A DNA stretch of 33,756 nt from IMG/VR virus record IMGVR_UViG_3300027743_000020, positions 1 to 33,756 of that record; one strand, 5' to 3'. A program made the translations under genes and the position numbers. The notes under the pieces are model-generated. The model searched no databases. It was not told the DNA's origin and saw nothing but the letters and a program-made list of their open reading frames with translations. Below are positions 4,750 to 32,787 of the stretch, one piece after another. The stretch comes from a virus. Positions within the stretch are counted from its first letter, which is position 1. Each line of letters opens with the position of its first letter.

Positions 4750-5983
4750 TCCGATTTCCCCCGATGATATGCGCCGGATGATGGGCGTTCTAGAAGGCTT
4801 CAAAGGCCAGTACTCGACGCTCAACGATGACATCGTTAAGTACGGCAAGGCGCAGTCCGAAACCGTCGAAAAGCTCGGCAAGCTCACAGACGATATGGTG
4901 AGCTTGCAGGCGAAGTATCAGACCGACGCGGCCGCGCGGCTTGACTCGATCGAGGAAAAGCTAAACCGTGGGCCGGCGACGCCGGTTGCCGAAAAGTCGA
5001 TCGGCGAGCAGGTTATCGCCGACGTGAAAGTTGCGGAATTCCTCAAGTCGCGCGGTCAGGGTCATGTGGTTGTCATGATTAAAGGGCCGTTGTTCGGCGG
5101 CAAGGATATCATGAACGTTTCGCGGACGTGGGCCGAGCAGATGAACGTGATTGCGGCCGGACCGCGGTTGCCGATCGGCGTTCGCTCGCTCATTCCGCAA
5201 GGGCAAACGACGTCCGGCGCCGTCGTATACGTCGAAGAAGTGAGCTTTACCAACAACGCGGCGCCCGTCGCCGAAGGCGCGCCGAAGCCGAAATCCGATA
5301 AGGTGTTTACGCCGCGGACGTTGCCGGTCGAAACGATCGCGCACTACTTCAAAGTCTCGAAACAGACGGCCGACGATTTGCCGTTCCTGGTCGCGCAAAT
5401 CGAGAATAACGGGATTTACGGCGTACAGAAGGTCGAAGACAACCAGTTGCTCAACGGCAACGGCACGACGCCGAACTTGAAAGGTATCGTCGGCGTCGCG
5501 ACGGTGGCGCCCGCGGCGCCGGTCGGCGGTACGCTCGTTGACGCGCTCGGGTACGCCGTATTCGACTTGGCGGCGAAGGGTTACGTACCGGACGGTGCCG
5601 TTGTCAATCCGGCCGATTGGGGCAAGGTGGCGTTGCAGAAAAACCTGCAAGGCAATTACGTTTTCTCCAATCCGCTCGACTACGCGACGGGTGGCCGCAT
5701 CTGGGGCGTACGCCTGGTGCAGTCGGCGCATATGGCCGCGGGCACGTTCGTTGCCGGCGCGTTTCAGGGCAATTCGCAGTTGCTCGATCGCGAAGACGTC
5801 AACGTGCAGATTGCGAATCAGAACGAAGACGACTTCATTAAGAACATGTTGACGGTGCGCGTTGAGGAGCGCGTAGTCTTCATCATTTATCAAGCCGCGG
5901 CGTTCGAAAAGGGCGTGATTCCGGCGCCGTCGCTCGAACTCGCCGACGCGCCGACCGAAGGGCGCAACGCGCGATCGAAGTAA
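4733..5983 (+). CDS. Major capsid protein (HK97 fold)
   Basis: This 416-aa protein has the HK97 gp5 layout: an N-terminal coiled-coil delta domain (residues about 10-85, rich in Lys/Glu heptads), a linker that the adjacent protease would cut, then the shell fold. Motifs seen include GVRSLIPQGQT, then KVSKQTADDLPFLVAQIENN in the spine helix, DNQLLNGNGTTPNLKGI in the P domain and a C-terminal region VRVEERVVFIIYQAAAF. The start ATG lies inside the protease gene. Two strong hairpins (5992-6063) follow the stop, which probably set the high capsid mRNA level apart from downstream genes. Confidence 0.95.
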   Translation: MEPNTNPISPDDMRRMMGVLEGFKGQYSTLNDDIVKYGKAQSETVEKLGKLTDDMVSLQAKYQTDAAARLDSIEEKLNRGPATPVAEKSIGEQVIADVKVAEFLKSRGQGHVVVMIKGPLFGGKDIMNVSRTWAEQMNVIAAGPRLPIGVRSLIPQGQTTSGAVVYVEEVSFTNNAAPVAEGAPKPKSDKVFTPRTLPVETIAHYFKVSKQTADDLPFLVAQIENNGIYGVQKVEDNQLLNGNGTTPNLKGIVGVATVAPAAPVGGTLVDALGYAVFDLAAKGYVPDGAVVNPADWGKVALQKNLQGNYVFSNPLDYATGGRIWGVRLVQSAHMAAGTFVAGAFQGNSQLLDREDVNVQIANQNEDDFIKNMLTVRVEERVVFIIYQAAAFEKGVIPAPSLELADAPTEGRNARSK

Positions 5984-20235: not shown

Positions 20236-20264
20236 CCGGCCGGCTATCGTGTCGCCGGCCGGCT
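20236..20264. terminator. Bidirectional terminator between late operon and brnA
   Basis: GCCGGCCGGC (20236-20245) pairs with GCCGGCCGGC (20255-20264) around TATCGTGTC. The right arm falls inside the brnA 3' end region. It separates the plus-strand tail operon from the minus-strand toxin-antitoxin pair. There is no long T tract, so efficiency is uncertain. Confidence 0.7.
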
Positions 20265-20561
20265 CGCGTTCATGGCTTGCCGCAAGATTTCGTTAACGCG
20301 CGTCTGGTAGCCGTCGCCGCGCGACTTGAGCCACGCTAGAACGTCGGAATCAAGCCGCATAGTTACGCTCGCCTTGCGCGGGCGGAAATGCACGAGCACG
20401 GCATCGTCCGGAATCTCGGGCGCGTCGGAAAGGTCGATATCCTCATCGCGCTTCGGGCCGTTGGTAATCATTTTTTGCAAATCGGCCTTTTGCTTAGGCG
20501 TGAGCGGGTCGCCTGGTTCGTGGTTTAATCTCACCATGTTGTTACTCAAGGTTTTTGGCAT
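20244..20561 (-). CDS. brnA: BrnA-like antitoxin
   Basis: This gives 105 aa. The ATG at 20561 has an excellent ribosome site (GAGAGGAAACTTT) and lies inside the brnT 3' end, a 20-bp overlap. The N-terminal half is toxin-binding and Pro-rich (HEPGDPLTPKQKADLQKM, then DLSDAPEIPDDAV). The C-terminal half is a ribbon-helix-helix DNA-binding domain (KASVTMRLDSDVLAWLKSRG then YQTRVNEILRQAM). BrnA normally neutralises BrnT and represses its own promoter. An internal ATG at 20537 is a poorer alternative. Confidence 0.9.
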   Translation of the reverse strand: MPKTLSNNMVRLNHEPGDPLTPKQKADLQKMITNGPKRDEDIDLSDAPEIPDDAVLVHFRPRKASVTMRLDSDVLAWLKSRGDGYQTRVNEILRQAMNASRPATR

Positions 20562-20829
20562 AAAGTTTCCTCTCATTGCGCGTGGCGTCCCGCGCGGAAA
20601 TGATGCGCACGATTTCTTCGCCCTTTTCGTCGCGGTAGGTGTGGACAACGAGTAGCAGTAAAGCACCGGGCGCTACGCCGATGGCGTGCCAGCGTTGCTC
20701 GCCGTCCACGTCCGCATCTTCGTATCGCAGGCAGTCGAAGTCGTCGAATACCAGCATTGCGACGTCAAACGAAACGCCGTGCTTGCGTTCGTTTTCTTCC
20801 GCTTTCGCTTTGTCCCATTCAAACCGCAT
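20542..20829 (-). CDS. brnT: BrnT-like ribonuclease toxin
   Basis: This 95-aa protein fits the BrnT family of RelE-fold ribonuclease toxins. Family marks: N-terminal FEWDKAKAEENERKHGVSF, FDDFDCLRYEDADVDGEQRW, then LLLVVHTYRDEKGEE and RIISARDATRNERKLY. Its promoter and operator palindromes lie just upstream (20830-20869). The toxin-before-antitoxin order is normal for brnTA. In a prophage it would act as an addiction or defence module. All regions of the family are present, so it is probably active. Confidence 0.93.
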   Translation of the reverse strand: MRFEWDKAKAEENERKHGVSFDVAMLVFDDFDCLRYEDADVDGEQRWHAIGVAPGALLLLVVHTYRDEKGEEIVRIISARDATRNERKLYAKNLE

Positions 20830-29053: not shown

Positions 29054-29458
29054 GGCCGGCGCTCCCTAAAGCGTTGGAATGTGGTCAGGGCTGTCGCAGT
29101 GCTATCAACACCGCGGCAGTCCGCTCTTAATCTATCACCGTCCGCCGGCGGCGGGCAGGACCAGCAGTACCTGTTCTCCGGGGGTGTGCTGTTGGGGTTA
29201 GTCGCGGTATCGATTCGGATTGTACCGCGAGCTTCACAGTACCCCGACGTGAATGCCGCCCGATGCCGTGGAAGGTCCCCTCCGTTGATTCTGTAGTTCC
29301 TCACTGCTGCGTAGTTCCGCCAAGAAAGGCGCAGCCGCAAGTGCAAAGAAAAGCGCCGGAGGGGTACGGCTTCCTTTCATTCTGCCATAACCTCCCAGCG
29401 CAATTGATAAAGGGTTTTTTTGAAGACGTGATTTCGCGCGTCTTTTGGGAGAGTCGGT
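29054..29458. other. Intergenic region between integrase and initiator
   Basis: This gap holds the starts of the integrase (minus) and initiator (plus) and one possible 48-aa minus-strand ORF. GGTTTTTTTG occurs just before the initiator's ribosome site. I see no strong -35/-10 pair for either. Base use is closer to 60% AT-neutral than in the late block. Long minus-strand frames here look spurious. Confidence 0.4.
29234..29380 (-). CDS. Possible 48-aa protein with signal-peptide-like start
   Basis: ATG at 29380 follows GGGAGG by about 11 bases. The N-terminus has a basic stretch, then ALFFALAAAPFLAEL, as in a signal peptide or membrane segment. The remainder is polar (RSSEELQNQRRGP). There is no Cys for lipidation. 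It could be a fragment of host origin or a small secreted or membrane protein. Support is weak. Confidence 0.25.
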   Translation of the reverse strand: MKGSRTPPALFFALAAAPFLAELRSSEELQNQRRGPSTASGGIHVGVL

Positions 29459-30706
29459 ATGGCTGGTACGCAAGAGCGACGTAGCGCGGCGAGTGGTGAG
29501 TTTCCCGCCAGAAAACACGCTGCGCAAAGCGACGTTTCCGGTATTGGATCTGAAAGCCGGTCCGAAACTACGAGCTCCACGCAAGGGCGAGAGAGGAACG
29601 GCTTTGTAAAACTGCGTCGCGGGCGCCTGGAACGCGATGCGCCGGACGGTGAAACGCCCTGGAATTACGAGCACGCCATGCGCGCGCTTGGGCCCATCGC
29701 ATTTTGCGCGTTTCTGTATGTCTTGGATCGGACCGTTGCCGCCTATAAGGCTAAACCGGCCGCAGATATTGACGAAAACGACTTAGCGGAAGTATTGAGA
29801 GTTACGCCGCGGCATGTGCGTAAAGTAATCGACGACGCAATTACGGCCGGCGCGATGTCGCGCGATGCCGAGCATTACTGGCGGTTGTCGGTGCATGTGG
29901 AAGCTCTGGAATCGTTGCCGGCTCGGCCGCGCGTTCATAAGCCACGCACGAAACCGCAGCCGAACGAAGCCGAAGTGCGGGCGCCGCAAATGGCGCTTCC
30001 GCTCAAGTCGGTGCCCGTGGTTGAGGAAATACATATCCCCGCAACGACGGCGGCGCCGATCCAGGTGGCACCCGTCGTTGGGGAAATAGATATCCCCGAA
30101 TCGGAAAAGGATTTCCGCCCGCGGGAAACCTATTGCCCCTGGAATTGGCCTTGCCCGCATCTTTCCAGCGAGTTACCGGACGGTAGACCTTCAGACCTTG
30201 TAAACATAGAAGAACCGACGACGACGGGCGCGGGCCGTCCGGCCAGTTGCGAACAGCGAACCGCCGAAGCAGCCGATCTCGAAAACGCCTATTTAGCACG
30301 TTTTCTGCAGCCTGCCACGCGCATCGGCGAATTGCTGAAAATCGACGGTATGGTGATCGACGATGCGTTGGCCGGCGTCATGTGGGCCGACTGCTCGGCG
30401 GTCAATCCGGACCTTACACCGCGCGAGTTCGTTTCGATCGCCAACGCGAAGTTGGCAGAGTGGCGCCCGCGGCCGCTCGATAAACGACCGGGGCTTAGGA
30501 TCAAATCGACGATAACGGGCACGCTCAAGGCATCAATGCCTAACGCCGTCTGCGGTGCCTTGTACATGGTGGCGCGCGAGCAGGCGCCCGCAGAGCTCGC
30601 CCGCGATTGCCGCGACGCTCGCGAGATTCTCGTCGGCGACGCATCGCCGCGCGATCGAGCGTGGGCGCGGGCCATGCTCATCGAAGCCGGCGAACTCGAA
30701 ACATAA
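29459..30706 (+). CDS. Putative replication initiator with winged-helix domain
   Basis: This gives 415 aa from ATG 29459 after GGGAGAG. Residues 64-143 form a winged-helix type domain (WNYEHAMRALGPIAFCAFLY, then DLAEVLRVTPRHVRKVIDDA and ITAGAMSRDAEHYWRL). The middle is Pro-rich with the repeated peptide VVEEIHIPATTA / VVGEIDIPES. The C-terminal 150 residues are helical. Lambda O-like initiators have a DNA-binding N-terminus and carry origin iterons within the gene; the DNA here does too (30014-30098). The initiator role is inferred from this layout. Confidence 0.65.
   Translation: MAGTQERRSAASGEFPARKHAAQSDVSGIGSESRSETTSSTQGRERNGFVKLRRGRLERDAPDGETPWNYEHAMRALGPIAFCAFLYVLDRTVAAYKAKPAADIDENDLAEVLRVTPRHVRKVIDDAITAGAMSRDAEHYWRLSVHVEALESLPARPRVHKPRTKPQPNEAEVRAPQMALPLKSVPVVEEIHIPATTAAPIQVAPVVGEIDIPESEKDFRPRETYCPWNWPCPHLSSELPDGRPSDLVNIEEPTTTGAGRPASCEQRTAEAADLENAYLARFLQPATRIGELLKIDGMVIDDALAGVMWADCSAVNPDLTPREFVSIANAKLAEWRPRPLDKRPGLRIKSTITGTLKASMPNAVCGALYMVAREQAPAELARDCRDAREILVGDASPRDRAWARAMLIEAGELET
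30014..30098 (+). repeat. Iteron-like direct repeats; candidate replication origin
   Basis: Two 28-bp copies (30014-30041 and 30071-30098) differ at three positions and start 57 bp apart, with core GGAAATAnATATCCCCG. A third partial match (GGAAACCTATTGCCCC) lies at 30124-30139. GGATTTCC / GGGAAACC inverted pieces follow at about 30109-30129. The region is more AT-rich than its surroundings. The repeats are also in frame, so they could be coding repeats. Confidence 0.6.
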
Positions 30707-30975
30707 ACCGCTCTGTACGTTTTTACACTCACACTCGGTACCGGGGGGTGAATCCCTGCGCCCGCGCTCTGCAAAATTGGGGTAGCCTTGTGTCCAGACC
30801 GCAACCCATGTCAGAAATTGCCCGTCGAGGGGCAATAGGTGTACGGTTAAGTGCTAATTCTCGGCATTCGGGCGCCTTTTCCCTGCAGTAGTAGGGTTTT
30901 TCCTGAACGCTCTCGGCATCAATACCATTCGGGAAAGCTGTCCTCTTTTTTCCCTCCCCCTTAAGAGGTTTCCAG
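30707..30975 (+). promoter_or_regulatory. Intergenic leader before the late block
   Basis: This gap carries a hairpin ATTGCCC (30817-30823) / GGGCAAT (30830-30836), the terminator at 30881-30901, and a hairpin between CCTCTT (30942-30947) and AAGAGG (30963-30968). AAGAGG is also the ribosome site for the gene at 30976, so this stem would hide it. No consensus promoter is clear; the late operon probably starts near here. Confidence 0.5.
30881..30901 (+). terminator. Intrinsic terminator after the initiator gene
   Basis: CCCTGC (30881-30886) and GTAGGG (30891-30896) form a 6-bp stem with an AGTA loop, followed by TTTTT (30897-30901). It lies between the initiator operon and the late block and is a good site for late antitermination control. 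Confidence 0.75.
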
Positions 30976-31290
30976 ATGAAAATTCCCGTCTACAACAGTG
31001 GCGGCGATATGGTGTATCGCGTTCATACAGCCGAAATGGAGCGAATGCTTTTGCTCAAGCAAGCCAGATTGAGCGAAGGCGGCCGGACGCTGCATTTGAC
31101 CGACATTACCGGCGCGCCGTTGATTTTCGGCCGCACGCACACCTCGCGCGGCGGCTTGCTTGCCGCGATCGGCCGAAGCCAGCAATACACGACGGCGAAC
31201 GAACGCGGCCAGGTGAACGGCTTCAAGACGATCTATCCGGAGGATCGGGCCGTCTTCGTCTCGGCCGTGATCGATTGTTTGGTGAGCTAA
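30976..31290 (+). CDS. Hypothetical protein at start of late block
   Basis: This gives 104 aa. The ribosome site AAGAGG lies 7 bases upstream and can be paired with CCTCTT at 30942. The protein looks alpha/beta (KIPVYNSGGDMVYRVHTAEM, then LHLTDITGAPLIFGRTHTSR and FKTIYPEDRAVFVSAVIDCL). No family is recognised. It overlaps the next start as TAATG. First position of the late block suggests a regulator or packaging helper, which is inference only. Confidence 0.65.
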   Translation: MKIPVYNSGGDMVYRVHTAEMERMLLLKQARLSEGGRTLHLTDITGAPLIFGRTHTSRGGLLAAIGRSQQYTTANERGQVNGFKTIYPEDRAVFVSAVIDCLVS

Positions 31291-31484
31291 TGACCGTCGG
31301 TGAGCTCAAAACAGTACTGGCGCGGCTTGACGATTCGCTCGAAATTGAGATAATCGCCCGGTATGAAGACGGCGACGGCGACTACTTCGACGACCGTAGT
31401 TTCGATTTGCAAGCGGTCGCCTCTGAGTTGGATCCTGACACGGCGCGAGAATATGCACGCTTCGAATGCGCAGACCGTGAGTAG
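31290..31484 (+). CDS. Small acidic hypothetical protein
   Basis: This gives 64 aa from ATG 31290 (TAATG overlap). It is highly acidic (EIEIIARYEDGDGDYFDDRS, then FDLQAVASELDPDTAREYAR). It could be a DNA mimic or terminase accessory, but no family is recognised. It overlaps the terminase N-terminus by 32 bp. Support comes from its coupling and codon pattern. Confidence 0.6.
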   Translation: MTVGELKTVLARLDDSLEIEIIARYEDGDGDYFDDRSFDLQAVASELDPDTAREYARFECADRE

Positions 31485-32787
31485 CGGGCCGATTCCGATA
31501 AACTTCAACCGGCTGCCGGCCGGGATCACGGCCGCCGAAATCGCCGCAACGGCCGCGAGCCTGAGCGATGCCGAGTTGCGCGAGCTGCTCTACTGCTGGG
31601 AGCTGTGGAGCCGGGCCGAACAGGAATGCCCGGCCGGCGACTGGCGCACGTGGTTGATTATGGCCGGCCGCGGCGCTGGCAAGACGCGTACGGGCGCCGA
31701 GACGGTCCGCCAGGTGGTGAGCCGGGCGCCGGGGCAACGGATTGCGCTGGTGGGGCCGACGGCCGGCGACTGCAGGGAAGTGATGGTGGAGGGCGAAAGC
31801 GGCTTGTTAAACGTTTTTCCGCCTCACCAGCGGCCGGTTTACGAGCCATCCAAGCGCCGTGTTACGTTCCGTAACGGCTCGCGGGCGTTTCTCTATTCAG
31901 CCGAGGAGCCCGAGCGGCTCCGCGGACCGCAACATCATTGGGCCTGGTGCGATGAAATCGCCACGTATCCGAAGATCAAAGACCTTTGGAGCAACCTGCA
32001 GTTCGGTCTTCGGCTCGGGCGCGATCCGCGGGTGTTGGCGACGACGACGCCGCGGCCGATGAAGTTCTTGAAAGAATTGCTGGCCGACGCCGGCACGATC
32101 GTAACCCGCGGCTCCACGTTCGACAACGCCGCGAATCTGCCGGCCGCGCAATTGGCCGAATTCCGGCGCGTTTACGGCAATACGCGCATCGGCCGGCAAG
32201 AACTTGAGGGCGAGCTCCTCGAGGAGTCCGAGGGCGCGTTGTGGACGCGCGAGACGATCGAGAAGGCGCGCGTCCGCTCGGCGCCTGACCTGGTGCGAAT
32301 CGTCATTGCGATTGATCCGGCGACAACGAGCGGCGAAGGGTCGGACGATACCGGGATTTCGGCGTTCGGCGTCGGCGCCGACGGCGACGGCTACGTACTG
32401 GCCGACGACACTTGCCACCTTCCACCGGCGCAATGGGCGGCGCGATCGGTGATGGTCTTCGATCGGTGGGAGGCGGACCGCGTAATCGGCGAGGCCAACA
32501 ACGGCGGCGACCTCGTGGAGCTCACGATTCGGACCGAACGGCGCAATATCCCGTACGAGAAGGTGCACGCGAGCCGCGGTAAGGTGGCGCGCGCCGAGCC
32601 CGTCGCGGCGTTGTACGAGCAAGGCAAGATTCATCACGTCGGCCAGTTCGCCGCCCTTGAGGACGAAATGGTAAATTTCGTGCCCGGGCAGATTAAGCGA
32701 TCGCCGAACCGCGTTGACGCGCTCGTGTGGGGCGCGTCGTACCTCATGCTTAAGCCGGCGCGCGTCGGCCGGGTGCTTTCACTATGA
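31453..32787 (+). CDS. terL: Terminase large subunit
   Basis: This gives 444 aa from ATG 31453 (an upstream open stretch lies in the previous gene; a GTG at 31477 is an alternative). The N-terminal ATPase has Walker A GRGAGKT (72-78), Walker B WCDE (165-168) and the TTTP coupling motif (197-200). The C-terminal RNase H-like nuclease has D288 (IAIDPATTSG), E347 (VIGEANNGG) and D422 (NRVDALVWG). It cuts and packages DNA through the portal. The small subunit is not next to it. A headful or cohesive mode cannot be read from the sequence. Confidence 0.95.
   Translation: MHASNAQTVSSGPIPINFNRLPAGITAAEIAATAASLSDAELRELLYCWELWSRAEQECPAGDWRTWLIMAGRGAGKTRTGAETVRQVVSRAPGQRIALVGPTAGDCREVMVEGESGLLNVFPPHQRPVYEPSKRRVTFRNGSRAFLYSAEEPERLRGPQHHWAWCDEIATYPKIKDLWSNLQFGLRLGRDPRVLATTTPRPMKFLKELLADAGTIVTRGSTFDNAANLPAAQLAEFRRVYGNTRIGRQELEGELLEESEGALWTRETIEKARVRSAPDLVRIVIAIDPATTSGEGSDDTGISAFGVGADGDGYVLADDTCHLPPAQWAARSVMVFDRWEADRVIGEANNGGDLVELTIRTERRNIPYEKVHASRGKVARAEPVAALYEQGKIHHVGQFAALEDEMVNFVPGQIKRSPNRVDALVWGASYLMLKPARVGRVLSL

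Follow-up and report, generated by a model that had tools for sequence, protein, structure and literature searches.

Does a gene of an uncultured phage carry an origin of replication within its own coding sequence? The question is raised by virus record IMGVR_UViG_3300027743_000020, a phage record of 33.8 kb, assembled as a circle and bearing a terminal repeat of 127 bp, of which the whole stretch of 33,756 nucleotides was analysed here as the window. The source is an uncultured temperate phage, and its identified proteins include a large terminase, a portal, a capsid and a tyrosine integrase. An earlier note, made from the sequence alone, had proposed an iteron-like origin inside a replication initiator gene, which is the following:

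29459..30706, plus strand, O-like replication initiator gene, 415 amino acids (aa), function inferred; open reading frame (ORF), present in relatives, N-terminal domain O-like by profile comparison

We consider it probable that this protein is a lambda O-type initiator and that the repeats are its binding sites, located within the linker-coding part of the gene itself. Support for an origin comes from dyads at the same place in all readable relatives, from DNA-level constraint on the adjacent A-rich block, and from the near absence of the sites elsewhere in the contigs. The origin proposed by the earlier note is supported, while the nature of its repeats needs amending, since the sites are palindromic rather than plain direct repeats.

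Dyad sites within the gene

Two 28-bp copies with a common core 57 bp apart had been described, and they are indeed present at 30014-30041 and 30071-30098, identical at 25 of 28 positions. Their 17-bp core, GGAAATANATATCCCCG, written GGAAATA(C/G)ATATCCCCG, lies at 30025-30041 and 30082-30098 and is 16/17 identical between the copies, with diverged flanks; overall similarity stretches over 55 nt at 75%. No further match to the core at up to three mismatches was found anywhere in the window. Both copies are hyphenated palindromes as well as direct repeats, and both contain ATA and CCC, rare codons that account for 6.6% of Ile and 10% of Pro, respectively. A third, partial copy was recovered at 30123-30138, while a better one at 30102-30117 had been overlooked, giving the following series of sites, none assigned to a strand:

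30023..30040, no strand, dyad site 1, GAGGAAATACATATCCCC, 6/9 complementary pairs; window core search, dyad scoring
30080..30097, no strand, dyad site 2, GGGGAAATAGATATCCCC, 7/9 complementary pairs; core search, dyad scoring, codon-shuffle test
30102..30117, no strand, weaker dyad site 3, CGGAAAAGGATTTCCG, 6/8 pairs; 21 bp past site 2
30123..30138, no strand, degenerate site 4, GGGAAACCTATTGCCC, 5/8 pairs; 21 bp past site 3

The four sites follow one another at centre-to-centre steps of 57, 21 and 21 bp, 560-680 bp into the gene and in the stretch coding for a predicted disordered linker; none lies upstream of the gene. Site 3 is homologous to a strong site, CGGAAACGGGTTTCCG, in the alignment with the related contig L007. 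The status of site 4 is uncertain because the same DNA encodes the conserved peptide ETYCPW.

The repeats exceed chance expectation under a null model in which synonymous codons are permuted within the gene, keeping the protein, and in which the score combines repeat identity with dyad symmetry. With 18-bp words, equal to the lambda iteron length, the observed score of the window gene was reached in none of 200 permutations, and with 16-bp words its direct-repeat identity alone was reached in 6 of 300. Each of seven relatives gave 0 or 1 in 300. Several known lambdoid O genes contain comparable repeated dyads directly after the DNA-binding domain, only some of which beat the shuffles: MPK9, with TGTGCCGAAAACGGCACA and AGTGCCGAAAACGGCACA, reached 0/200, followed by BUCT566 (4/200), KO-TP1 (5/200) and SE1 (7/200); lambda O itself, at 77/200, falls short of significance by the repeated-dyad measure. 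Nine other phage genes taken for comparison, mostly free of such dyad repeats, ranged from 3 to 160 of 200.

The encoded protein and the DNA beyond the sites

The protein comprises two domains joined by the linker that contains the sites, and the DNA beyond them carries two further features:

29600..29887, plus strand, N-terminal winged-helix DNA-binding domain, residues ~48-143; hhalign to lambda O-family N-terminal domains, AlphaFold2 (AF2), low to moderate confidence
30260..30685, plus strand, conserved helical C-terminal domain; AF2 helices at residues 268-409, conserved in relatives
30179..30232, no strand, A-rich block in which synonymous codons are unusually conserved, candidate DNA unwinding element; A-rich 36-mer scan, codon identity
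30290..30307, no strand, TATTTAGCACGTTTTCTG, 18 bp, identical in all eight aligned genes; alignment

In the AF2 model, which is of low confidence, residues 70-143 form a winged helix-turn-helix (wHTH) fold of helices and a beta wing, residues 145-267 are disordered and a helical domain spans 268-409. By hhalign, seven N-terminal domains of the gene family, combined in one profile, matched a profile of nine lambdoid O N-terminal domains at 89% probability (score 40.3, E 2e-6, 79 columns). Among the controls, 100 column-shuffled profiles had a mean score of 11.1 and a maximum of 18.7, the reversed profile scored 18.7, and the lambda Nu1 family, which the small-terminase comparison covered, reached 2% probability with a score of 19.4. 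The match stands at 48% when the window sequence is left out of the family profile. Lambda O alone against the family profile (0.3%) was too weak, and the nine-member O alignment was used instead. Relatives also have weak PHROG matches, all within the wHTH region, to phrog_678 ('replication initiation O-like') and phrog_186 ('DnaD-like helicase loader'); together with the profile match, these support the label of replication initiator already given to the gene. The C-terminal domain probably recruits a helicase or its loader.

The most A-rich 36-mer of the gene lies 43 nt past the start of the codons for a conserved WNW motif in seven relatives, and it is tied first in the window; its AT content is moderate, at 58-69% across homologs. 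Codon identity at synonymous positions, 0.56 gene-wide, rises to 0.85-0.96 over window residues 238-262 and to 0.76-0.88 over residues 271-290, and TATTTAGCACGTTTTCTG is kept identical despite synonymous freedom, rare codons included. The A-rich peak of lambda O comes directly after iteron 4. Judged from sequence, the constrained A-rich block of the window gene fits an unwinding element. The palindromic sites, of which two are strong and one or two weak, would be bound by winged-helix dimers; these would bend and strain the DNA and help to melt the A-rich block that follows the sites on the 3' side, after which the host helicase or its loader might be recruited by the C-terminal domain.

Relatives and the apparent exchange of sites

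Relatives of the gene occur in eight phage contigs (L001-L005 and L007-L009), L004 apparently duplicating L003 over the initiator gene, and a ninth contig, L010, holds only its 3' end. Searching annotated phages by tblastn with the window protein gave no match, and scans of genome contigs found no relative of the gene, so that no host was identified. Every relative with a readable linker has repeated palindromes in the same place, ahead of a conserved TYC(P/T/A)WNW motif, while the sequence of the palindrome differs: CTGAAGTTAACTTCAG and close variants in L001, L002, L003 and L005; CTGCAGTTAACTGCAG in L008, in which both half-sites are altered together relative to L002; CTGCATTTAAATGCAG in L009; and GAAACGGGTTTC, in three copies, in L007. 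Elsewhere in the relatives' contigs, GTTAAC-type sites are limited to one 3-mismatch match in G003. A single-site scan with the window site gave two matches, neither with a related gene, which were taken as chance.

The peptides encoded by the sites change with them, reading LKLTSV, LQLTAV, LHLNAV and ETGFTI in relatives and GEIDIP in the window. Since peptide and site sequence vary while dyad symmetry and place are kept, the constraint appears to act on the DNA. The earlier note was correct that the repeats also encode peptides; on this comparison of sequences, however, the peptide repeat looks like a by-product, and in no relative was it found retained over differing DNA.

In several pairs of relatives, DNA homology is interrupted over the wHTH domain and linker and resumes at the sites. 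L001 and L002 are 99.5% identical from L001:5969, eight bases ahead of the site at 5977; homology between L005 and L009 resumes right past the last site; and the window and L007 are homologous from window position 30101, L007 being cut at its 5' end so that only the linker side is visible. These junctions suggest that recognition domain and sites move as one cassette, and the relatives accordingly seem, as far as alignments can tell, to swap the two together as a unit. Four relatives additionally contain a nested reading frame:

L001:5702-5980, L002:5669-5959, L008:5681-5959, L009:3703-3978, plus strand, small +1-frame ORF in the initiator linker; frame conservation

This ORF of 91-96 aa has plausible Shine-Dalgarno sequences and ends at or just ahead of the next dyad site; it has no family match and is not present in the window. 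The nested gene is proposed from frame conservation: in 6/6 pairwise comparisons among these four contigs, its translation is better conserved than that of the initiator across the shared DNA. An open +1 frame is by itself mostly not significant. A broader model can be put forward tentatively, at a little under an even chance: the origin would be an exchangeable specificity cassette (wHTH domain, linker and dyads) joined at the iterons to a conserved helicase-recruiting half, and in at least four relatives, though not in the window, the cassette would also house the +1-frame overprinted gene between iterons. In those relatives, a single stretch of DNA would then serve as linker, origin and second gene.

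The 415-aa ORF has the integrase on one side and, on the other, two small genes followed by the large terminase (31363-32787). These small genes encode proteins of 104 aa and 64-69 aa without clear family match; the 104-aa protein (30976-31290) includes a stretch that is very conserved in relatives, RTHTSRGGLLAxIGRSQQYTTAN. Between the initiator gene and the 104-aa gene, a non-coding block at 30800-30930 is 77-86% identical in L007, L008, L009 and L010 and alignable in L001, and contains a palindrome, ATTGCCCGTC/GAGGGGCAAT, at 30817-30836. It is possibly a packaging site, a promoter or an RNA; Rfam gave no match to 29300-31100. Near the 5' end of the initiator gene, L001 has a conserved AT-rich stretch (~67-72%) with TCAACGACTTC(T/C)GATAAC at ~5199-5234, found in the same place in L002, L003, L005, L008 and L009 and not seen in the window. 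Farther away, the phage encodes a BrnT/BrnA type II toxin-antitoxin pair (20244-20829, minus strand).

Alternatives and comparison with known systems

Several results weigh against an O-type initiator with an internal origin. The 415-aa protein has no family match in Pfam, PHROG, NCBIfam or PDB, and the window sequence alone shows little similarity to the O profile (8%). The AF2 model is poor, with a mean predicted local distance difference test (pLDDT) score of 50, and a fold search with two low-confidence models against PDB and viral structures gave no significant match. Between the C-terminal domain and its lambda O counterpart hhalign gives no match (0.1%), and the window proteins searched included no recognisable P-like loader or helicase. 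For the window alone, the dyad statistics are weak with 16-bp words (22/300 permutations reach the observed score), its A-rich block is only 58% AT, and no other phage with its own site type was found. An O-like C-terminal domain is not required for membership of the wider kind, because this domain varies among lambdoid phages too. The main rivals, a terminase with a pac site and an internal operator, fit less well than the O-type reading.

In small terminases with an internal pac site, the recognition site of a DNA-binding protein can lie within that protein's own gene, close to the large terminase gene. The gene could by analogy encode an oversized small terminase whose dyads form such a site, which we judge quite unlikely. 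Its place two small genes upstream of the large terminase and the lack of a recognised small terminase among the window proteins searched would suit this explanation, under which site and protein specificity would likewise be exchanged together. The N-terminal domain, however, matches the O-type and not the Nu1-type profile, the PHROG matches of relatives are to replication families, and the gene itself has no PHROG or Pfam terminase match. A dyad array with a constrained A-rich block fits an origin, and the conserved non-coding block at ~30800-30930, nearer to the large terminase, is the better candidate for a packaging site.

Marginally less likely again is an operator role, in which the protein, bound at the dyads, would regulate transcription of its own gene or of the nested one. 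Proteins with wHTH domains commonly bind palindromes, the Foldseek neighbours of the model include operator-binding domains, albeit with non-significant scores, and four relatives have the small overprinted ORF between sites; yet the sites are deep inside the gene rather than upstream of it, the window keeps them without a nested gene, and the constrained A-rich block would be left unexplained. The least likely reading makes the repeat a peptide feature of the disordered linker, or a recent tandem duplication of 57 bp there, with no role for the DNA, for although the spacing is a whole number of codons and the similarity exceeds the core, it is the core with its rare codons that is preserved while the flanks have diverged, the peptides of relatives change completely while the palindromes stay, and the codon-shuffle tests are clear in relatives.

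For the favoured interpretation, an origin inside an O-type initiator gene, the closest known system is ori-lambda. In gene O of lambda, an AT-rich region of 39 bp adjoins four hyphenated inverted repeats of 18 bp; dimers of O bind the four repeats (18-19 bp), and the AT-rich DNA beside them opens (PMC6022878, PMC7466680, PMC5043065). The window gene resembles ori-lambda and the O genes of lambdoid phages (P22-like, HK446, MPK9) in having an N-terminal winged-helix domain encoded in the initiator gene, dyad repeats of ~18 bp in mid-gene at steps of 20-24 bp, and an AT-rich, A-strand-biased block immediately 3' of the sites, as well as in the variation of the site sequence between phages while position and symmetry remain constant (PMC6022878, PMC7466680). 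It differs from lambda in its site sequences and in their arrangement, with two strong sites 57 bp apart and weak ones at 21-bp steps in place of four close ones. Its linker is longer, its C-terminal domain is unrelated, and its A-rich block begins ~40 bp past the last degenerate site and is less AT-rich. At the place beside the initiator that P occupies in lambda and gene 12 in P22, no loader or helicase could be recognised. Iteron plasmid origins (RepA, RepE and the pi family) likewise combine repeated initiator-binding sites with an adjoining AT-rich region, while the window sites, being palindromes inside the initiator gene, are closer to lambda iterons than to the direct-repeat iterons of plasmids.

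An origin inside an O-type initiator gene is a known arrangement; what is new is its probable occurrence in phages without an annotated relative in the collections searched. A gene family of uncultured phages that had lacked annotation gains a likely function, together with a candidate origin, and the result suggests that origin placement in the manner of lambda extends far from the lambdoid phages. With several pairs of domain and site within one small family, these phages could help to explain how an O-type domain selects its iterons.
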